IMG/VR virus record: IMGVR_UViG_3300020410_000042
Coordinates: 1-31,670 of that record
DNA from: a virus
Length of the DNA: 31,670 nt
Direction: 5' to 3' (one strand)
Below, in pieces: positions 2,289 through 19,332 of this stretch. A model generated the notes under the pieces. That model was not told the origin of the DNA. It worked only from the letters and a program-made list of their open reading frames with translations, and did no database searches. The position numbers and the translations under genes are program-made. Positions within the stretch are counted from its first letter, which is position 1; each line of letters starts with the position of its first letter.

Positions 2289-2504
2289 ATGAAATTTAAT
2301 TTTTTTAGCGAAGATGACGATGTTCCCCTACCTAAATATATAGTAAGGCGTGAAAGCATTGGTTATAGTTCAAGAAAAGTTTGGACTGTTCGTGAAAGAA
2401 ATGGTGAAAATAAATTAGTAACTGTTATGAGGAGTAAGAATGAAGCTACAGGATGGATTGAAAGACAGTGTTCACATATTGGTAATAGGAGACATTATTG
2501 TTGA
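2289..2504 (+). CDS. Hypothetical protein, 71 aa
   Basis: No family recognised. The start at 2289 is set by a strong Shine-Dalgarno, AAGGAG (2279-2284), 4 nt upstream; an earlier in-frame ATG (2256) lies inside the preceding gene and has no such site. The N-terminus is short, aromatic and acidic (FNFFSEDDD). The centre (about residues 17-55) is basic and probably beta-rich, with a pattern like a small transcript- or DNA-binding domain, but this is weak. Its 3' end overlaps the following kinase gene by 65 nt, an unusually long overlap that is supported by good ribosome binding sites for both genes. Confidence 0.6.
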   Translation: MKFNFFSEDDDVPLPKYIVRRESIGYSSRKVWTVRERNGENKLVTVMRSKNEATGWIERQCSHIGNRRHYC

Positions 2505-3471
2505 TAGGTATATTACAGGTACTAGTACAAAAATGTCTTTTGAGGCTCCAGTTCCTATATTGGATTATAAGAATGAGGAATTGAGGTTGGGTGGTGCTGG
2601 AAATGTTGCACTTAATCTTAAGTATTTAGATTCTTCATGTAAGGTATCTTTGATGGGTGTTGTTGGTGATGATTATCATGGCCAATGGGTGGTAGATGAA
2701 TTAGAAAATTATGATATAGATAATTACTTTATTCATGTTGATGATTCTGATATAACTAATTGTAAAACTAGGTATATTACTGGAACATCTCAAATGATGC
2801 GTCTTGATAAATCTCCGCAAAAAACTTATCATAATCTTGAAAGTATAGTATTAGCTTGTGATAATATTAAGTTTGATATGATAATTGTTTCAGATTATGA
2901 TTATGGGGTCTTAAATAAAGATTCTATTGAATCACTGAAACAATCTGCAAAATGTCCAATCATAGTAGATCCAAAACTTAAAAATTTCTGGGATTATAGT
3001 GGTGTTTATTGTATTAAGCCTAATCGTAGAGAGATTACTGAGGCATTATATTATAAACTTCGTAAGAGAACAGTTGACCATAATGATATTGATTCATCTC
3101 TTGATAGTTTAATTTATGAAATGAATAAATATCATAAATCTCAATATATTGTAGTTACAGATGGTGATAGGGGTATGTGTTGGTATGATTCTGAGGATTC
3201 ATCTTATTCGTATCTCAAAGGAATTCCTGCAAAATTGGTTGATGTTACTGGTGCAGGAGATACTGTAATTTCCACATTGGGGTATTCGTTGGCTAAAGGA
3301 TATTCTTTTGAAAAGTCTTTGAAATATTCTAACATAGCTGCTTCAAGATCTGTTGAACAGTTGGGTTGTGGGTATGTTGATTTTTCGGGTATTCTTTCAG
3401 AAATTAAGGGAACTTATAGTAAGGAAGGTGAGTTATGGCATCAACAAGAATTGGAGAATATTCGAGTCTGA
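2440..3471 (+). CDS. PfkB-family sugar kinase, HldE/RfaE N-terminal (heptose-7-phosphate kinase) type
   Basis: Predicted to phosphorylate a sugar phosphate at C1, by analogy with the kinase half of HldE, which makes D-glycero-beta-D-manno-heptose 1,7-bisphosphate for ADP-heptose. HldE-like landmarks are VIGDIIVDRYITG (about 15-27), SFEAPVPIL (33-41), LGGAGNVALNL (50-60), SDYDYGVL (151-158), KPNRREI (193-199) and the PfkB ATP-site signature DVTGAGDT (268-275), with D274 the expected catalytic base. The protein is 343 aa and has no C-terminal cytidylyltransferase domain, unlike bifunctional HldE. The start has a good Shine-Dalgarno, GAGGAG (2429-2434). A HldD-like epimerase lies 2.3 kb downstream, which supports a heptose role. 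The exact substrate is inferred. Confidence 0.8.
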   Translation: MKLQDGLKDSVHILVIGDIIVDRYITGTSTKMSFEAPVPILDYKNEELRLGGAGNVALNLKYLDSSCKVSLMGVVGDDYHGQWVVDELENYDIDNYFIHVDDSDITNCKTRYITGTSQMMRLDKSPQKTYHNLESIVLACDNIKFDMIIVSDYDYGVLNKDSIESLKQSAKCPIIVDPKLKNFWDYSGVYCIKPNRREITEALYYKLRKRTVDHNDIDSSLDSLIYEMNKYHKSQYIVVTDGDRGMCWYDSEDSSYSYLKGIPAKLVDVTGAGDTVISTLGYSLAKGYSFEKSLKYSNIAASRSVEQLGCGYVDFSGILSEIKGTYSKEGELWHQQELENIRV

Positions 3472-5454: not shown

Positions 5455-5796
5455 ATGTCAGATGAATACATGGAAAATAGAGTTGACGAAACACATAAGG
5501 CCGAGTGGCATAATTATGCAGGTCTTGGAAGTCTTATTTCTATTATACTGCCTGTATTGTCTGAGTTTGAAGGAGTTGGAGAAGAATTTATAATGGGTGT
5601 TGGTGGGGCTTCAGCTGCATCGGTATTTGTTATTATGATGAAAATAGGTAGGGTTACTGCTTGTGTTGGTGATTTACATCAGGAACAGGATGTTAGAAAC
5701 CAAGAAGCTGAAGAAGAAAATAAAGAGCGTCTTAGAATGGAAAAACAAAGACGCAAAGATTCGGATTATCTAAACGATCCGATAGGATGGGAATAA
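5455..5796 (+). CDS. Small membrane protein, possible holin
   Basis: 113 residues with two hydrophobic segments (about 22-38, GLGSLISIILPVL; about 45-65, FIMGVGGASAASVFVIMM) separated by a short acidic loop. A highly charged, probably coiled-coil C-terminal half (about 75-113) follows. Size, two membrane segments and a charged tail fit a class II holin. The endolysin lies just upstream, with only the exonuclease between. No holin family is recognised with certainty, so this is inference; a generic membrane accessory protein is equally possible. The start follows GGAGTAGGG (5442-5450). Confidence 0.45.
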   Translation: MSDEYMENRVDETHKAEWHNYAGLGSLISIILPVLSEFEGVGEEFIMGVGGASAASVFVIMMKIGRVTACVGDLHQEQDVRNQEAEEENKERLRMEKQRRKDSDYLNDPIGWE

Positions 5797-5798
5797 TG

Positions 5799-6617
5799 AT
5801 GACGTACTTAGTTACAGGTTCTAATGGAATGATTGGTAGTCAAATATATAAGGAATTGAGGCGTATGGGTTGGAATACTCATAGTCTTAATACATCTGAA
5901 ATAGATGAATGTAATACTCAGAAAGATTTACAGAGTTTGATTACTAGTAAAATTAGATCAGTTAATGGGGTGTTTCATGTTGGAGCTATAGCAGATACTA
6001 GTGATTTTAGTGCAGATGTGTTATACTATAATTATCATATTACTAAATTGATTATTAATTCTTGTTCTCATTGGAATGTTCCTTTAATATTTTCTTCCAC
6101 ACAAATGGTTAAGGGTAGAAGTGAGGTTGGGTATCCAGAAAATATCTATGGGTGGTCAAAGGTTATGTGTGAAGATTATGGTTTAGCAAAAGCTCCGTAT
6201 ATATTACCTTTTATTGCTCTTAGGTATACAAATGTATATGGGCCGGGTGAAGAAGCTAAGGGTAGAAATGCTTCTCTTGCATATCAGGGTTGGTTATCTA
6301 AAAGGATAGATTTATGGGATGCTAAAAGAGATTTTGTGTATGTTAAGGATGTAGTTAGTGCCAATATCTATGCAATGAATAATATTAAAACTTCGGGAAC
6401 TTATTGGGTTGCTTCTGGAGAAACACGTTCAGTGATGGATTTGGTTGGTAATATGGGAGATGATATAACTATTGGTACAAAGAGTGAAAATTCTGCACCG
6501 CCATGGTTTCAGTGGGAAACTTCATGTGATCCTAATAGGTTTATGTCGGGGTGGACACCTAAATATACTATTGAGAGTGGAACTGCAGATTATTTAAATT
6601 ATTTAAAAAATAATTGA
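5799..6617 (+). CDS. NAD(P)-dependent sugar epimerase, HldD-like
   Basis: An extended SDR-family enzyme closest in pattern to HldD, which converts ADP-D-glycero-D-manno-heptose to the L-glycero epimer. Visible features are the Rossmann motif TGSNGMIG (6-13), FHVGAIADTS (59-68, like the HldD FHEGACSST), FSST (98-101) as the Ser/Thr site, the YxxxK pair Y117/K121, RYTNVYGPG (142-150) followed by an AKG lysine (K154) where HldD also has a lysine, and KRDFVYVKDV. Length (272 aa) is a little below HldD. Starts at 5787, 5796 and 5799 are possible; 5799 has the best spacing to AGGATGGGA and begins the Rossmann strand directly. It may act with the HldE-like kinase upstream; the substrate is inferred. 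Confidence 0.8.
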   Translation: MTYLVTGSNGMIGSQIYKELRRMGWNTHSLNTSEIDECNTQKDLQSLITSKIRSVNGVFHVGAIADTSDFSADVLYYNYHITKLIINSCSHWNVPLIFSSTQMVKGRSEVGYPENIYGWSKVMCEDYGLAKAPYILPFIALRYTNVYGPGEEAKGRNASLAYQGWLSKRIDLWDAKRDFVYVKDVVSANIYAMNNIKTSGTYWVASGETRSVMDLVGNMGDDITIGTKSENSAPPWFQWETSCDPNRFMSGWTPKYTIESGTADYLNYLKNN

Positions 6618-6915: not shown

Positions 6916-7188
6916 ATGGAAGAAATATTTGGAATTGTTTTATCAGTTTCATTTAGTATTGCATATGTTCCTCAGATAGTTAAAATGGTTTCGAGAAAAA
7001 GTTCCAGTGATGTTAGTTTAATTATGTTGTTAGTTAATGGTTTAGGATATGGTTCGGGGGTTGTTTATGTTGTGATGAAAGAGCTAGATGCATTCTGGCT
7101 CAAATTTAATTATATAGCAGGGTTTGTAATGACAATTTTTTGTATTGGTATATGGATGTTATATAAAGAAAAAGGAGAAGTCAAATGA
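6916..7188 (+). CDS. SemiSWEET-like PQ-loop membrane protein
   Basis: 90 residues with three predicted transmembrane helices (about 4-24, 33-53 and 62-83), the minimal triple-helix bundle of SemiSWEET transporters. The PQ-loop motif is at P19-Q20 in AYVPQIVKM, followed by the usual polar S/K-rich turn and a second helix beginning DVSLIMLL. SemiSWEETs dimerise in the inner membrane and pass sugars by facilitated diffusion; substrates vary, and PQ-loop proteins also include amino-acid carriers. It is head-to-tail with its neighbours, and the next gene begins in its stop codon (ATGA). The family is rather clear; the cargo is unknown. Confidence 0.8.
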   Translation: MEEIFGIVLSVSFSIAYVPQIVKMVSRKSSSDVSLIMLLVNGLGYGSGVVYVVMKELDAFWLKFNYIAGFVMTIFCIGIWMLYKEKGEVK

Positions 7189-7391
7189 CTAATGCCTATG
7201 GGTTACGTAAGACAAGTGGGGTAGATTATTATCATGTCTATCAGGAAGTTCAATCAGCTAAACAAGCTGCTCGTTTAAATATGAAAGTTGAGTTAGCTAC
7301 TCATGAAAGGGAAAAACATCAAGAGTCTGTTCAGCAAACTCAGTCTAGTTCTAAACCTGGCGTGGGTTCTAATTTAGACATAAGTGTATAG
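7185..7391 (+). CDS. Hypothetical protein, 68 aa, upstream of flagellin
   Basis: Unrecognised, hydrophilic and probably helical (about 15-50), with a Q/S-rich, low-complexity C-terminus. Its ATG overlaps the SemiSWEET stop (ATGA), which implies coupled translation, and it ends 9-27 nt before the flagellin start. AAAGGAG, just inside the end of the SemiSWEET gene, provides the Shine-Dalgarno. By position it could be a partner or chaperone of the flagellin-like protein, as small proteins near flagellin often are, but the sequence does not show this. Confidence 0.65.
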   Translation: MTNAYGLRKTSGVDYYHVYQEVQSAKQAARLNMKVELATHEREKHQESVQQTQSSSKPGVGSNLDISV

Positions 7392-7418
7392 TAAAGGAAA
7401 ATGAGAGAGGTAAATTGT

Positions 7419-8312
7419 ATGTTAAGTGGTTTGACAGCTAAAACGTTGGGTCGGTATCAGGAAGCTACTAAGATGGTCGAAAAGACTATGGAAAATTTGG
7501 CATCTGGTACAGCGGAGTTAAGTTCTGCAGAACAAGTAAAGGTTGGACGTATGAATAATACAATCCATACTTTACAGACGGCTCATAAAGTTGTCAAGCA
7601 GAATCAAGATTTATTACAGACTGCAGTAGCTGGAATTGATTCAATTAAAGCTGTTGTGGTTAAGATGAAAGAAGTTGCAACTCAGGCACAAGACGATCAA
7701 TTGACTTCAGATGCAAGAGCTGCTTTGGTTACAGAATATAACGAGTTAATGAAAGAAGTCCAATATGTTGCAAGTAATACTCAATATGATGGTACTGAAT
7801 TGATTGATGGTTCTTTTGGAACTAAGAGTATTACCATTGATGGTGTTAATTCAGATCAGGTAGTTGATATGACCATTGGTGATTTGACTTCGGGTGGATT
7901 GGGTATCGGGGCATATACTTATGTTCTTGATGCAAACAGTCCAATCTTAGGTCAGGCTAAGGATGGTGGTGGAGTATATCAAGTTGGTGATGAGATAAGT
8001 GTTCCAGAATCATCTTTAGACTCTGTTGAGAATGCAGAGATTGCTGTTTCTCGTTTGGAAGATGCTATTGAAAGTTTGGATGTAGAACGTTCTGTTCAGT
8101 TATCTAAAGTTGAAAGGTTTGATTTTACCATTGCTCATATGGAAAGGATGATTGGTATTAATGAAGAAGCAGTTGCAACAATTACTGATTTTGATGAAGC
8201 TGCAGAGATGGCTAAACTAACTAATTACAGGATCGAACAACAAACTGCAATTGCATTAATGAGTCAAGCTCAACAATTGTCTGCTAATGTTCTTCAGTTG
8301 TTACAAGGCTAA
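7419..8312 (+). CDS. Flagellin homologue encoded by the phage
   Basis: A flagellin-family protein with both conserved ends. In the N-terminal D0/D1-like part (about 1-130), helical heptads lead to LLQTAVAGIDSIKAVVVKM (66-84), where flagellins have a similar amphipathic segment, then AALVTEYNELMKEVQYVASN (101-120) and TQYDGTELIDG. The C-terminal part (about 205-297) includes VERFDFTIAHME, TDFDEAAEMAKLTNYRI and ALMSQAQQLSANVLQLLQG, equivalent to the flagellin ADYAxExxxLxxxQILxQA...LxxANQ...VLxLL ending. The middle is short, so D2/D3 domains are absent. ATG 7419 (Shine-Dalgarno GAGAGG) is preferred; ATG 7401 would add six residues. It sits among early-type genes (gp33, gp59) behind a sigma70-type promoter. 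It could form or poison host filaments, or act as a phage fibre. Confidence 0.82.
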   Translation: MLSGLTAKTLGRYQEATKMVEKTMENLASGTAELSSAEQVKVGRMNNTIHTLQTAHKVVKQNQDLLQTAVAGIDSIKAVVVKMKEVATQAQDDQLTSDARAALVTEYNELMKEVQYVASNTQYDGTELIDGSFGTKSITIDGVNSDQVVDMTIGDLTSGGLGIGAYTYVLDANSPILGQAKDGGGVYQVGDEISVPESSLDSVENAEIAVSRLEDAIESLDVERSVQLSKVERFDFTIAHMERMIGINEEAVATITDFDEAAEMAKLTNYRIEQQTAIALMSQAQQLSANVLQLLQG

Positions 8313-8437
8313 TGAAATATTATCCGATACCTAGTGCTGTTTATTATTACAACTTGTATATATTCAGCACTAAGTCTCGCTTAGGTTTAGTGGCATACAA
8401 GTATAGTATTAAGGTAGAAATTTTTGAGAGGGTATAA
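8312..8437 (+). CDS. 41-aa microprotein between flagellin and gp33
   Basis: An open frame, MKYYPIPSAVYYYNLYIF and onward to FERV, exactly fills the 124-nt gap. Its ATG overlaps the flagellin stop (TAATG at 8310-8314) and its stop overlaps the gp33 ATG (TAATG at 8435-8439). AAGG (8305-8308) precedes it. It is aromatic-rich (seven Tyr) and basic, with a moderately hydrophobic centre. No family is recognised. The two-sided TAATG packing is strong evidence for a real translated gene. Confidence 0.7.
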   Translation: MKYYPIPSAVYYYNLYIFSTKSRLGLVAYKYSIKVEIFERV

Positions 8438-8691
8438 TGCCAAAATTGACAGAGAAGCAATTCTTAGAATTGAGTAAAGTTAAGTCTAAAAAAATATTTT
8501 CGTCTGGTATTGAGACATTAGTTATTAATATGGAATGTAGTTATATGGATGCTATTATCCATTATTGTGAGGAGAATGATGTAGATTTTGACATTGTTCC
8601 TAAATTAATTTCATCTAGTATTAAAGAAAAATTACAAGCCGAGGCAACAAATTTAAATTTCCTTCCTAGAGTGGGAACTTTGCCTATATGA
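8437..8691 (+). CDS. 33: Late transcription coactivator gp33
   Basis: A T4 gp33-like protein, which bridges host RNA polymerase beta flap and the gp45 sliding clamp for late transcription. The recognised pattern is the central SYMDAIIHYCEENDVDF (about 35-51) followed by VPKLISSSIKEKLQAEATNL (54-73), as I recall from marine phage gp33 proteins. The C-terminal FLPRVGTLPI could hold a clamp-binding tail, but the match to a hydrophobic clamp motif is not clear. At 84 aa it is shorter than T4 gp33 (112). It lies next to gp59 and gp32, as in T4. Its presence fits the TATAAATA late promoters at 15204-15221. Confidence 0.78.
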   Translation: MPKLTEKQFLELSKVKSKKIFSSGIETLVINMECSYMDAIIHYCEENDVDFDIVPKLISSSIKEKLQAEATNLNFLPRVGTLPI

Positions 8692-9290
8692 TTAAGATGG
8701 CAAGTTCCTTTGAAGTCTATCAAATTTACATGGGTCTTAAGTTACATTTTACTTCAGAGAATTACGATTACTTTAAGTATGGTGGTAAGACTAGAGTTAA
8801 TATAGACAAATTTTATCAGAGAAGAAATATTGTACATTTCTTTGAGAAGTTAAAAACTAAATATAAACCACAACAATTGATCGAGTATTTCGCGTCTAAT
8901 TTTATCTTGGGAAAAACTGATATTTTTCTTATAGGTGAAGATGGCGATGATGTTTATACTGAATGGAAACGCAGAATACAATCAATGGCTTATATTTTCC
9001 AACAGGATATTAATATACTGTTATCTAAGGTAGATCATTTTGATGATCTCTTTAAAATTGATGATGGTAGAAATCCTGTTATATTAAAATCCTATTATCA
9101 TGATGATATAACAATAGAAACGTTTGTTATCTTACAGAACATATTAGGATTTTTTCACCAATTTGATTCTGAGTTGAATGATGATATTGTTTGGCCAGAT
9201 AAGAAATTGTTATGTAGTAAATATAGTATATTTTTAAATATGGATACAAAAAAATATTTAAAAATTTTAAAAGAAAACCTAAACCTTTAG
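8688..9290 (+). CDS. 59: gp59-like loader of DNA helicase
   Basis: Loads the gp41 replicative helicase onto gp32-covered forked DNA in T4. The all-helical 200-residue protein aligns by eye with T4 gp59: the start (MIKMASSFEVYQIYMGLKLHF), YQRRNIVHFFEKLKTKYKP (about 44-62), LIEYFASNFILG (about 64-75), the ITIETFVILQNILGF segment (about 141-155) and VWPDKKLLCSKYSIFLNMD near the end. The first ATG overlaps the gp33 stop (ATGA); a second in-frame ATG (8697) is possible. Position directly before gene 32 supports the call. Confidence 0.85.
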   Translation: MIKMASSFEVYQIYMGLKLHFTSENYDYFKYGGKTRVNIDKFYQRRNIVHFFEKLKTKYKPQQLIEYFASNFILGKTDIFLIGEDGDDVYTEWKRRIQSMAYIFQQDINILLSKVDHFDDLFKIDDGRNPVILKSYYHDDITIETFVILQNILGFFHQFDSELNDDIVWPDKKLLCSKYSIFLNMDTKKYLKILKENLNL

Positions 9291-9333
9291 CCGTTCTCAT
9301 ACGTCTAATATAGTGTATGTGTTAGTGGACAAG

Positions 9334-9339
9334 TATAAT
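9334..9339 (+). promoter_or_regulatory. Possible -10 element upstream of gene 32
   Basis: A perfect TATAAT lies in the 77-nt gap before gene 32. No good -35 hexamer occurs 16-18 bp upstream and no TGn extension is present, so a plain sigma70 promoter is weak. An activator-dependent (middle-type) promoter is possible. The gene 32 Shine-Dalgarno is GGAGAA (9352-9357). Confidence 0.3.
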
Positions 9340-9367
9340 ATAAAACAATACGGAGAATACAACGAAT

Positions 9368-10258
9368 ATGAATTTTCAACAGCTTAAACAGAACTCTCAA
9401 TCTCAGATTGATGCAATTTCCCAAGCCCTTTCTCAAACTCAAACTAAAAAAGAATCTTATGGTGATGACCGTATATGGAAGTGTGAACGTGATAAATCAG
9501 GTAATGGTTATGCAGTAATTCGTTTCCTTCCACCAAGTGAAGGTGAAGATTTGCCATGGGTTCGTATTTTTTCACATGGTTTTCAAGGTAAAGGTGGATG
9601 GTATATTGAAAACTCTTTAACGACTTTAAATCAAGATGATCCAGTATCAGAATATAATCGTGAACTTTGGAATAATGGTACGGAGGCAGGTAAGAATCAG
9701 GCTCGGGATCAGAAACGTAGATTGAATTACTATAGTAATATTCTAGTGGTTCAAGATCCTGCTAATCCTCAGAATGAGGGTCGAGTTCATTTGTTTAAGT
9801 ATGGTAAAAAGATCTTTGATAAGATTAATGATGTAATGAATCCAGAATATCCAGATGAAAAACCAGTTAATCCTTTTGATTTGTGGACAGGTGCAGACTT
9901 TAAACTTAAGGTTCGCATGCTGGATGGTTATGTTAATTATGATAAATCAGAATTTTCACCAATCAGCCCAATATATAATGACGATACAGAATTAGAAAAA
10001 CTTTGGAAGTCTCAGTATAAGTTAAATGAACTAGTTGATCCTAGTAACTTTAAATCATATGATGAATTAAAAACTAAATTGGATCGTGTATTAGGATTGG
10101 CATCATTTACACCAGAACCAGTTCAAAGTGAACCAACAATTAGTACAATGGAAGCACCATCATTTAGTACTGCTGAAGAAGTTAGTTTACCTTCAAGTGG
10201 TGGGGATGATGAAGATGATACATTGTCTTATTTTAAGAAGTTGGCTGAAAACGGTTAA
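9368..10258 (+). CDS. 32: Single-stranded DNA-binding protein gp32
   Basis: Coats ssDNA during replication, recombination and repair. The N-terminal basic, Q/S-rich segment (1-40) would drive cooperativity. The OB core is typical (WKCERDKSGNGYAVIRFLPP, about 37-56; SHGFQGKGGWYIEN, about 70-83; RLNYYSNILVVQDPANPQNE; LFKYGKKIFDKIN). The acidic tail DDEDDTLSYFKKL near the C-terminus recruits partners in T4. The T4 zinc ligands are not kept: the cysteines of the T4 ENC and CPVC motifs are replaced (ENSL; DPVSEYN), while the histidine of SHGF remains. I recall the same in cyanophage relatives. Length (296 aa) is normal. It is followed by a strong terminator. Confidence 0.95.
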   Translation: MNFQQLKQNSQSQIDAISQALSQTQTKKESYGDDRIWKCERDKSGNGYAVIRFLPPSEGEDLPWVRIFSHGFQGKGGWYIENSLTTLNQDDPVSEYNRELWNNGTEAGKNQARDQKRRLNYYSNILVVQDPANPQNEGRVHLFKYGKKIFDKINDVMNPEYPDEKPVNPFDLWTGADFKLKVRMLDGYVNYDKSEFSPISPIYNDDTELEKLWKSQYKLNELVDPSNFKSYDELKTKLDRVLGLASFTPEPVQSEPTISTMEAPSFSTAEEVSLPSSGGDDEDDTLSYFKKLAENG

Positions 10259-14773: not shown

Positions 14774-15204
14774 AGTTTCATTTCTTTTTCGGTAATAATT
14801 CTAAATTTCCAGTTACGTCTATTACAAAATCTAGTTGCTGCTTCCCATTTGGCTTGATTTTTAGTCCATGTATACATTTCTTTTAGGAATCTTTTTCCGT
14901 TTTTAGGTTTAATTAATTGCTTAAATGGTTTGATTTCTATTAGATGCATTTCAATCTCTTGTTTTTTGTTTTTTACTTTAATTAAAAAGTCTGGAAAATA
15001 TCTATGCTTCCTTCCATCAGTTGGACATCTATAGGGTATGGTTACTTCTTCACTAGACCACTCTAATATATTTACGGTTCTATCACAATATTTCATAAAT
15101 GATCTTTCCCAAGAAGAACGATAAATAATATTATTTGGGTTCCCATTATATTTATGAGGGTTTTTGGGTTTATAATATCCCTTATAGGTTTTGTACATAT
15201 CCAT
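14770..15204 (-). CDS. 4: Head completion protein gp4
   Basis: Needed in T4 to finish DNA-filled heads before tail joining. Nearly the whole protein lines up with T4 gp4: KNPHKYNGNPNNIIYRSSWE (about 14-33), VTIPYRCPTDGRKHRYFPDF (about 54-73), IEIKPFKQ (about 89-96), KRFLKEMYTWTKNQAKWEAA (about 104-123) and the ending NWKFRIITEKE. The YRSxWE, YFPDF and EIKP elements form a PD-(D/E)XK-like nuclease fold. Two starts are possible, ATG 15204 and ATG 15198, neither with a Shine-Dalgarno. A minus-strand TATAAATA overlaps 15211-15204, so the mRNA may begin at or near the start codon. First gene of the leftward operon. Confidence 0.92.
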   Translation of the reverse strand: MDMYKTYKGYYKPKNPHKYNGNPNNIIYRSSWERSFMKYCDRTVNILEWSSEEVTIPYRCPTDGRKHRYFPDFLIKVKNKKQEIEMHLIEIKPFKQLIKPKNGKRFLKEMYTWTKNQAKWEAATRFCNRRNWKFRIITEKEMKL

Positions 15205-15211
15205 ATTTATA
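15204..15211 (-). promoter_or_regulatory. T4-type late promoter motif (leftward)
   Basis: TATAAATA on the minus strand, inside the 41-nt gap between divergent operons. With T4 geometry (-13 to -6) transcription would start at about 15198, exactly at the second gp4 ATG, giving a leaderless message. Together with the rightward copies it makes a compact divergent late control region. Confidence 0.5.
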
Positions 15212-15221
15212 AATATAAATA
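15208..15221 (+). promoter_or_regulatory. Tandem overlapping late promoter motifs (rightward)
   Basis: Two TATAAATA octamers overlap by two bases (15208-15215 and 15214-15221). The second would start RNA near 15227, leaving a 19-nt leader with the GAGG ribosome site (15237-15240) before gp48 at 15246. The location at the head of the long baseplate operon and the presence of gp33 support a true late promoter. Confidence 0.65.
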
Positions 15222-16991: not shown

Positions 16992-18370
16992 ATTATACTA
17001 GACCTGGCGAATATCTTATAAAAAGTATCAGATTAATTTCTGATGATGATATAAATCATAACATAGAAATTTCTTCTTTAGTTGTTGAGTTGAATATTTA
17101 CGAGAATATGTTTATGGATGCAATTAGTGGAAAGTTAGCTATAAATGATACTAATAATTTATTATCTAATTTTCCTATTATCGGTCAGGAAAGAGTTAAT
17201 TTACTCATATCTTCGTTTAGGAATGATGGCAGAGAAGTGTTTTTCCAGCACGATTTTAAGGTTTATAATTATACTTCGAGAACTTCTAATGGTAGGGGTA
17301 GTATGTCTTATGTCTTGGAGTTGGTTTCTCCAGAACTATTAATAAATGAACAGAAGAAAGTATGTGCATCATTTAAGGGTATGACTGCAACTGATGTTGC
17401 TAAACGTATACTAACAAATTCATCTTATGGTCTAAATGTAGATTCTACTAAGAGAGTTAAGTTTTCAAGAACAGTGGGTACATCTGATTTTATTATTCCA
17501 AATTGGCGACCATATACTACACTTAATTGGTTGGCTACAAAGGGGATGTCTCCATCGAATGGTGGTTATGATTTTGCTATGTTTTTCTATGAAGCTTTTT
17601 CACCTGAACCGAATGAAACTCAGGTACTTTCTAGTTTTAATTTTAAATCATTTGGTGAAATGTTCAGGGATAAATCAGAGGAGGTTTATACATATTATCC
17701 CGCAAGTGATAGTAGTGATAGAAGAACTTTATCAGAAGAAGAATTTTCTAAAATTGATGGTGGAGAATCTTCTCATAATAGGATTATTTCATATAGTGTT
17801 GTCGAATCTTATAATATTATTCAGAATATAAATATGGGTATGTATAGTTCTACTGTAAGAACTCATGATATAATAGAACGTAAAGTTACTGATTTGAAAT
17901 TTAAATATTCTTCTAAGGAAGATTTGTTAGCTAGAATGAGGGGTACGATCAATTCTCGTTCTAAAGAATATGATCTAGTTGGTATGGGTGATGATGCTAG
18001 AGGTTCTAGTTATTCAGAATCATATGATAGTCGAATTATATATCGTACAACTAGTTACGATTGGCAAAGAAAACAAGGTGATATTCATCCTATGACAAGT
18101 TTAAGGAATTCTCAATTAAAGAGATTTGATAATATTAGGTTAAATATTGATATTTCTGGTAATTTGGAAAGATCAATTGGGGATGTAATAACTTTAAAAA
18201 TTCCTTCAGAAGATGCATCTCAGGGTGGTCATGAAGATAGACTTTTTAGTGGAGATTATGTTATAACTGCAATTAGACATAAGTTTACTCCTGAGACTTA
18301 TCAGATGCACCTTAATGTTACTAAGGATAATTATTTCAAAACTTTATCTTCTATTAGAGAGGGAGAGTAA
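16988..18370 (+). CDS. Baseplate hub protein, gp27-like
   Basis: Predicted central hub ring on which the gp5 spike sits. The N-terminal part (about 1-125) reads as paired tube-like beta domains (IEISSLVVELNIYENMFMD, about 25-43; an INDTNNLLSNFPI segment). The middle has DFIIPNWRPYTTLNWLATKG (about 168-187), the P-x-x-x-L-x-W-L pattern typical of hub proteins related to gp27/gpD. The C-terminal part contains IDISGNLERSIGDVITLKIP (about 392-411) and a final strand YQMHLNV. At 460 aa it is somewhat longer than T4 gp27 (391). It is two genes upstream of gp5, as expected. Similarity is structural in pattern rather than strict. Confidence 0.65.
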   Translation: MNYTRPGEYLIKSIRLISDDDINHNIEISSLVVELNIYENMFMDAISGKLAINDTNNLLSNFPIIGQERVNLLISSFRNDGREVFFQHDFKVYNYTSRTSNGRGSMSYVLELVSPELLINEQKKVCASFKGMTATDVAKRILTNSSYGLNVDSTKRVKFSRTVGTSDFIIPNWRPYTTLNWLATKGMSPSNGGYDFAMFFYEAFSPEPNETQVLSSFNFKSFGEMFRDKSEEVYTYYPASDSSDRRTLSEEEFSKIDGGESSHNRIISYSVVESYNIIQNINMGMYSSTVRTHDIIERKVTDLKFKYSSKEDLLARMRGTINSRSKEYDLVGMGDDARGSSYSESYDSRIIYRTTSYDWQRKQGDIHPMTSLRNSQLKRFDNIRLNIDISGNLERSIGDVITLKIPSEDASQGGHEDRLFSGDYVITAIRHKFTPETYQMHLNVTKDNYFKTLSSIREGE

Positions 18371-19332
18371 TGTACAACGATTATATATTAGATTATGTTA
18401 CTAAATTGATGTCATCTGAGAAAGCCCAGCTTCTCGATGAAAAACTTATAATGTTTAATCAGGGTAAAAATTACGGTCAAGTAGTTTTTATGGCTGGTGG
18501 TGCAGGTTCTGGTAAAGGATTTGCTCAAAGTAAATTCATGGAAAAGAATAAATTCAAGGTTAGAGATGTTGATGAATGGAAAAAAGCATTCATGAAGTTA
18601 TCAAAAGACCCAAGATTTTCTAATTATCACGCAGTGGTTAAAAGAAATGCAAAAGGCAGAGTCTTGGGTGTTGATGTTCTAAAAGATAAACCCAAGTTAG
18701 ATTATTCTGATACAAAGGATGTAGATGTTATTCTACTTGGAGATTTGGATTTGAAAAATCCAGACCATGTTTTCATATTACATTTAGCAGTTAAAAAATT
18801 GGGTATTAAGAATAAGACTTTAGATTTAATTTTATCTGATCTGAAAAAAGGAACTTTACCTAATATCTTATTTGATGTAACATTGAAGGATATGGATGAT
18901 ATTACAGATGTTTTACCTACACTTAAAGAAGTAGGGTATGATGCCAAGGGTATTCATATTGTTTGGGTCTTGACTAATTATCATGTAGCTGTTAAAGCTA
19001 ATAAAGATCGAGAAAGAGTTGTTCCAGATGATGTTCTCTTGAAAACTCATGAAGGTGCAGCTAATACTATGTATAATATTATCAAATCTAAAGGAGTTAA
19101 AGGTATAGATGGAGCAGTTCATGTTATTTTAAATAACAGAGATCAAACTATTTTCTATAAGCGTCCAGATGGCACTAAAACTAATGTAGTTAAAGGGTTT
19201 ACTTATCTTACCTTGAAAAAAGAAGGTAAAAAATTCTTTGGTGAGAAAGAAGTTAATTCTCAGTTGTTAGATTGGATTAAGAATAATATACCTAAGACCA
19301 AAGAAACTGCACCTATATGGAGTGGTAGATAA
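18370..19332 (+). CDS. P-loop kinase-like protein (zeta-toxin-like) in the baseplate operon
   Basis: 320 aa with an early Walker A motif, FMAGGAGSGKGFAQSKF (40-56), then KFKVRDVDEWKKAF (about 61-75), a layout like zeta toxins and related small-molecule kinases. A Walker-B-like hydrophobic strand with acidic end (VDVILLGDLD, about 118-127) follows. Positions about 195-215 (GIHIVWVLTNYHVAVKANKD RER) resemble the lid arginines of such kinases. The C-terminal 80 residues look like a separate small beta domain. Zeta toxins phosphorylate UDP-N-acetylglucosamine. Whether this acts as enzyme, assembly factor or virion part is unknown. It starts within the hub gene stop codon (TAATG). I recall homologues in other marine T4-like baseplate clusters. 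Confidence 0.65.
   Translation: MYNDYILDYVTKLMSSEKAQLLDEKLIMFNQGKNYGQVVFMAGGAGSGKGFAQSKFMEKNKFKVRDVDEWKKAFMKLSKDPRFSNYHAVVKRNAKGRVLGVDVLKDKPKLDYSDTKDVDVILLGDLDLKNPDHVFILHLAVKKLGIKNKTLDLILSDLKKGTLPNILFDVTLKDMDDITDVLPTLKEVGYDAKGIHIVWVLTNYHVAVKANKDRERVVPDDVLLKTHEGAANTMYNIIKSKGVKGIDGAVHVILNNRDQTIFYKRPDGTKTNVVKGFTYLTLKKEGKKFFGEKEVNSQLLDWIKNNIPKTKETAPIWSGR

Follow-up and report, generated by a model that had tools for sequence, protein, structure and literature searches.

What is a flagellin, the subunit of the bacterial flagellar filament, doing in the genome of a T4-like phage? The question is raised by one open reading frame in the 31.7-kb IMG/VR virus record IMGVR_UViG_3300020410_000042, which we analysed over its whole length (hereafter the window). 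The original prediction had placed a flagellin homologue there, within a T4-like phage genome, and had proposed domain searches, a structure prediction and a tree. The phage background was borne out by homologues of the T4 core proteins gp33, gp59, gp32, gp5, gp6 and gp8, recognized in the window through Pfam and PHROGs; the carrier contigs are incomplete. The features discussed below are collected in Table 1.

Table 1. Positions of the flagellin, its neighbours and the tmRNA genes of carrier contigs.
Feature	Contig	Position	Strand	Basis
o7, 90-aa PQ-loop membrane protein, overlaps o8	window	6916..7188	+	Pfam PQ-loop 1e-9
o8, 68-aa helical ORF directly upstream of flagellin	window	7185..7391	+	synteny in type A
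Flagellin translation-initiation region, not coding: SD GAGAGGT and 8-nt spacer	window	7401..7418	+	kept in 17 loci
Phage flagellin (type A), 297 aa	window	7419..8312	+	Pfam, PDB profile, Foldseek, AF2 helices, SD-based start
Recombined flagellin core, allele exchange among close relatives	window	7485..8235	+	identity pattern versus L020
gp33 late-transcription coactivator, downstream neighbour of flagellin	window	8437..8691	+	Pfam Trans_coact 7e-21
gp59 helicase loader	window	8688..9290	+	Pfam T4_Gp59_N/C, PHROG 269
gp32 ssDNA-binding protein, basis of clade tree	window	9368..10258	+	Pfam gp32 2.5e-43
tmRNA	L119	1606-1916		
tmRNA	L026	6947-7255		
tmRNA	L014	2772-3080		
tmRNA	L061	9971-10361	-	
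tmRNA	L063	3614-3894		
tmRNA	L157-L159, L163			

Both flagellin domains are present in the product. Flagellin_N (PF00669) matches residues 12-132 (E=2.1e-12; 47.7 bits against a cut-off of 26.6) and Flagellin_C (PF00700) residues 213-295 (E=3.6e-12; 46.9 bits against a cut-off of 23). A profile of the family compared with PDB sequences retrieved, among the matches listed, flagellins or flagellin homologues only. The AF2 model, which is of moderate confidence (mean pLDDT 73, pTM 0.55), contains helices at residues 2-29, 36-89, 97-121 and 203-296 that fit the D0/D1 pattern, and Foldseek matched this model to flagellar filament structures from Bacillus, Vibrio, Roseburia, Leptospira and Pseudomonas (E values from 2e-10 upwards; TM about 0.65 at 2e-10). 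The viral structure library BFVD gave no match to the window flagellin better than 0.0098. Identity to the cellular flagellins found is about 22-28%, and the NCBIfam cut-off for a named flagellin was not reached (best 92 bits versus 531). In a tree with 13 cellular-type filament flagellins, which is too weak at depth to name a donor, the phage copies are monophyletic (100/99) and sit on a long separate branch on the filament side. An identity as FlgL/HAP3 was ruled out, because TIGR02550 scored 22.7 bits against 127 and the tree places E. coli FlgL far from the phage flagellins. Judged by sequence and predicted fold, the window gene is a genuine filament-type flagellin homologue, on which Pfam, the PDB sequence search and Foldseek agree.

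Translation from the in-frame ATG at 7401 would lengthen this product by six residues. In 17 loci, however, the ATG at 7419 is immediately preceded by GAGGTAAATTGT, CGGAGAATTGT or GGGGAATTCGT, each providing a Shine-Dalgarno-like box and spacer, and the upstream ATG lies in another frame in L032 and does not occur in L031 or L019. Because the Shine-Dalgarno element is kept and the upstream codon is broken or missing in relatives, 7419 is the better start and the start at 7401 was rejected.

The gene is not peculiar to the window. Flagellin was found in 35 contigs, in every case in phage context: 26 are of type A (the window, L032 and 24 further contigs from IMG/VR searches) and nine belong to type B, a divergent form reached by way of L119. 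L032 (NZCQ01000013.1) is filed as a contig of a 'Pacearchaeota' MAG and is a misbinned phage of the carrier clade, with o5, o8, flagellin and lysozyme; it was also the only contig returned when cellular genome contigs were scanned for a donor. Pairs of relatives gave dN/dS values of 0.04-0.27, which indicate purifying selection.

A tree of gp32 with 93 rows groups the 17 carriers in it as a single clade (99/97; recovered in 98% of bootstrap trees) that contains no non-carrier. The carriers that were found through gp32 itself (L019, L062 = L021, L063, L005 and L119) all have the flagellin, and the 21 non-carriers with at least 6 kb covered upstream of gp32 all lie outside the carrier clade. Since all 17 carriers form a single gp32 clade without non-carriers, flagellin is an old core gene of this clade. 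The single gp32 clade, taken with the single flagellin clade, supports one acquisition, by the ancestor of one marine T4-like clade, followed by vertical retention since.

Flagellin had been predicted not to be an ordinary T4 component, and indeed no T4-like isolate carrying it occurs among 50,697 INPHARED records. The flagellin matches in isolate records fall on a Bacillus phage, on human faecal contigs and on short contigs of Listeria, Escherichia and Salmonella that resemble host DNA. By gp6, the nearest isolates (36-40% identity) include Mosig and HTVC008M (Pelagibacter phages), S-RSM4 (a cyanophage) and Melnitz (a Methylophilales phage). Permuted two-piece tmRNA genes lie upstream of the flagellin in many carriers, and the tags that they encode end in MAA (GNDYELQMAA, GNNQLPMAA, GEYNQLPMAA). 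The matches to Rfam alpha_tmRNA in L063 and L119 hint at a host among the Alphaproteobacteria.

In most carriers the flagellin gene lies directly upstream of gp33-gp59-gp32; in the lineage of L004, L027, L028 and L029 it adjoins a lysozyme gene, at least 3.5 kb upstream of gp33. The pair formed by o8 and flagellin is unbroken in every type A locus whose contig covers the upstream side, including those beside lysozyme, and there is no o8 in type B loci. AF2 models o8 as a single long helix with low confidence, and no match to it was found in Pfam, NCBIfam, PHROGs or isolate phages. A second o8-like ORF (L054, 11393-11587) lies some 11 kb away from the flagellin of G004, with no flagellin alongside, and has the MINTYG start and the KWGSNLDV end in common with o8, which may be one of a broader group of small phage proteins. 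Elsewhere in the window, an ORF of the tail region (18370-19332) gave a Zeta_toxin/kinase-type match (3.9e-8), and those at 2440-3471 and 5787-6617 encode a PfkB-type sugar kinase and a nucleotide-sugar epimerase, perhaps an LPS heptose-type pair.

The position of the gene also bears on its expression. In the window, exact T4-type late promoters, TATAAATA, are divergently arranged between tail genes (15204-15221). In 19 loci the roughly 900 bp upstream of the flagellin, or as much of this stretch as each locus covers, contain none; exact matches alone were used, since a one-mismatch scan performed at chance in the AT-rich window (124 found, 135 expected). The lack of a nearby late promoter, together with the location beside gp33-59-32, suggests that flagellin is expressed with that cluster and not as a late virion gene, as judged from gene order and the missing motif only.

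Close relatives were compared along this region. Over the flagellin core the window and L020 are 67-81% identical, against 92-94% in o8 and 99-100% in gp33-59-32. Between L020 and L003 the pattern is reversed, with 96-100% identity in the flagellin core and 83-91% in most of gp33-59-32. These opposite patterns, seen in a single trio of close relatives (the window, L020 and L003), indicate that flagellin alleles have been exchanged by recombination, as expected of a part that faces a varying host structure. The near-identity of the window and L020 across 8437-10258 stands out from much of the surrounding tail region, where the two are only 55-95% identical, and the gp33-59-32 block itself appears to have been transferred recently between phages.

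Which parts of the flagellin have been kept? The type A protein comprises N-D0 (residues 1 to about 30), a reworked linker (31-45), N-D1 (to 121), a short centre (122-200), C-D1 (201-262) and C-D0 (263-297). Its middle domain is as short as had been predicted, at about 60-80 aa, and relatives differ in it by an indel of some 20 aa. The accompanying claim that both flagellin ends are retained holds for the intact C-terminus and fails for the N-terminus, where the first five or so residues (INTN) are gone and the RINSAKDDAAGLAI linker has been replaced by one that is four residues shorter. Among cellular flagellins, the linker SGLRINSAKDDAAGLAI is the most alike stretch (mean pairwise identity 0.71, n=14), and the INTN cap and RINSAKDDAAGLAI linker are conserved in essentially all those compared; in type A the RIN..DDAAGLAI motif is lost and the linker varies most among the parts compared (0.57 within type A, 0.20 to cellular flagellins). 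Type B also lacks the INTN cap, and its linker retains RI and DD. Best kept is the C-terminal D0 (pairwise identity 0.79-0.82 in type A, 0.40 to cellular flagellins), in which type A retains D458, D460, E464, Q476, Q484, A485, L495 and L496 (E. coli numbering). The D1 helices are intact, and the N-half of D1 is conserved too. In FliC, the N-terminal region functions in export and polymerization; the chaperone FliS binds to the C-terminal D0. With its cap and linker lost, the phage protein could have ceased to interact with the flagellum.

We propose that the protein is a flagellin mimic that is taken into the export and assembly pathway of the host's flagellin and alters filament growth or brings it to a halt, a reading that we consider to have an even chance of being right. 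The protein would be produced together with gp33-59-32, either ahead of the switch to late expression or while it takes place, and its conserved D1 and C-D0 would be recognized by the host flagellin export or chaperone machinery, through which it would enter the flagellum or its export gate. Searches of nine fragmentary carrier records, in which the positive controls matched, yielded no FliS, FliD, FlaF or FlbT and no TldR-type nuclease (PF07282); host parts would therefore be needed. Once in place, the altered N-terminal D0 and linker would change or arrest filament growth, and because this region is altered the protein is probably not an ordinary subunit. In type A, o8 would act as its partner. 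The likely pay-offs would be a flagellum closed to flagellotropic competitors, a change in motility or a saving in the cost of flagellin synthesis. That a whole clade of uncultivated marine viruses has its own altered flagellin suggests that they interfere with the host flagellum or rebuild it. A narrower version, which we put forward tentatively and think rather less probable, is that the reshaped core flagellin of this T4-like (presumably lytic) clade, with its dedicated o8, may be a viral flagellum-terminating subunit that stops or converts export or the filament. One observation speaks against the proposed mimic: among family members, sequence differences do not cluster in the central domain, the part that would face outward on a filament.

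The original prediction had offered three functions, namely replacing or capping host flagella, a decoy and a phage fibre, and each is still a candidate. The main rival, possible though we doubt it, is that flagellin was recruited as a self-assembling part of the virion (a fibre, a whisker or a tail filament) that o8 helps to assemble. A helical self-assembling fold, a core gene of a T4-like clade and a short partner ORF fixed in type A would all be at home in this explanation, as would the adjoining lysozyme gene of one lineage and recombining alleles, which would suit a fibre in contact with the host. Nevertheless, the N-terminal residues that flagellins conserve for assembly are the very ones that have been lost, and BFVD contains no similar virion protein. 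The location upstream of gp33-59-32, outside a structural operon, and the lack of the close upstream TATAAATA that tail genes have argue weakly in the same direction. Next in rank, and unlikely, is an intracellular decoy that is never exported and whose C-D0/D1 binds the host flagellin chaperone or a flagellin-level regulator, shutting down flagellar synthesis. The neighbourhood of the replication cluster accords with such a role, as does the contrast between C-D0, which is far better conserved than any other part, and N-D0 and the linker, which have drifted; yet the N-half of D1 is conserved beyond the need of a chaperone-binding tail, and the binding partner is putative.

More unlikely still is a full replacement of the host flagellin, in which the filament would be re-coated as it is by the prophage flagellin FliCP. 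This idea has a precedent in temperate phages (PMC13418256) and is compatible with the presence of both flagellin domains; against it stand the loss of the INTN cap and of the RINSAKDDAAGLAI linker in type A, the failure to find a repressor of the host gene such as TldR in the nine carrier records, and a presumably lytic T4-type gene set that would leave little time for filament turnover. Lastly, the few flagellin matches in isolate records, mostly on short unannotated contigs resembling host contamination, might raise the suspicion that the gene is itself contamination or a host gene stitched onto a phage contig. Repeated synteny refutes this: 35 contigs hold the gene among phage genes, in one clade, with the Shine-Dalgarno element and frame conserved and under purifying selection, which leaves an artefact with a negligible chance.

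The only phage-borne flagellin that we found described is the TldR-associated FliCP. It lies beside tldR and its guide RNA in lambda-like temperate phages, forms functional, motile filaments in the case of Enterobacter temperate phages, and serves the lysogen over many generations (PMC13418256). Beyond it, the openly accessible literature yielded no description of a marine or T4-like phage flagellin; what is new relative to the literature searched is a flagellin that is a core gene of a T4-like clade and has a reworked N-terminus. Fixation in such a clade, unlike the lysogen-serving role of FliCP, requires another reason. This would be a first case of such a virus that acts on the bacterial flagellum or uses it as building material, and its about 35 natural variants show which flagellin parts can be lost and which cannot. 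Separately, Bacillus phage EZ-2018a (CP027117; L143, 2686-3873), a record named as a 118-kb phage, has csrA followed by a complete Bacillus-type flagellin, with a TPR/Rap-like gene near; this locus represents host DNA included in the record or else a second flagellin carried by a phage.

Set beside these systems, the flagellin of the carrier clade resembles FliC, FlaA and Hag in having both domains, the helical D0/D1 fold and the C-D0 signature, and differs from them in lacking INTN, with the linker motif lost in type A and partly kept in type B. With the csrA-hag locus of EZ-2018a it shares residence on a record named as phage, whereas that flagellin is an ordinary Bacillus-type protein with an intact N-terminus, beside csrA, in an unrelated phage and on a separate branch. 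The marine T4 relatives of the Melnitz, Mosig and HTVC008M kind (Kyanoviridae) are among the closest isolates by gp6 but are without the flagellin gene. FliCP is likewise a phage-borne flagellin homologue with a D0/D1 core; unlike it, the flagellin described here belongs to T4-like phages in which no TldR-type nuclease domain was found, and has lost its N-terminal cap and linker.
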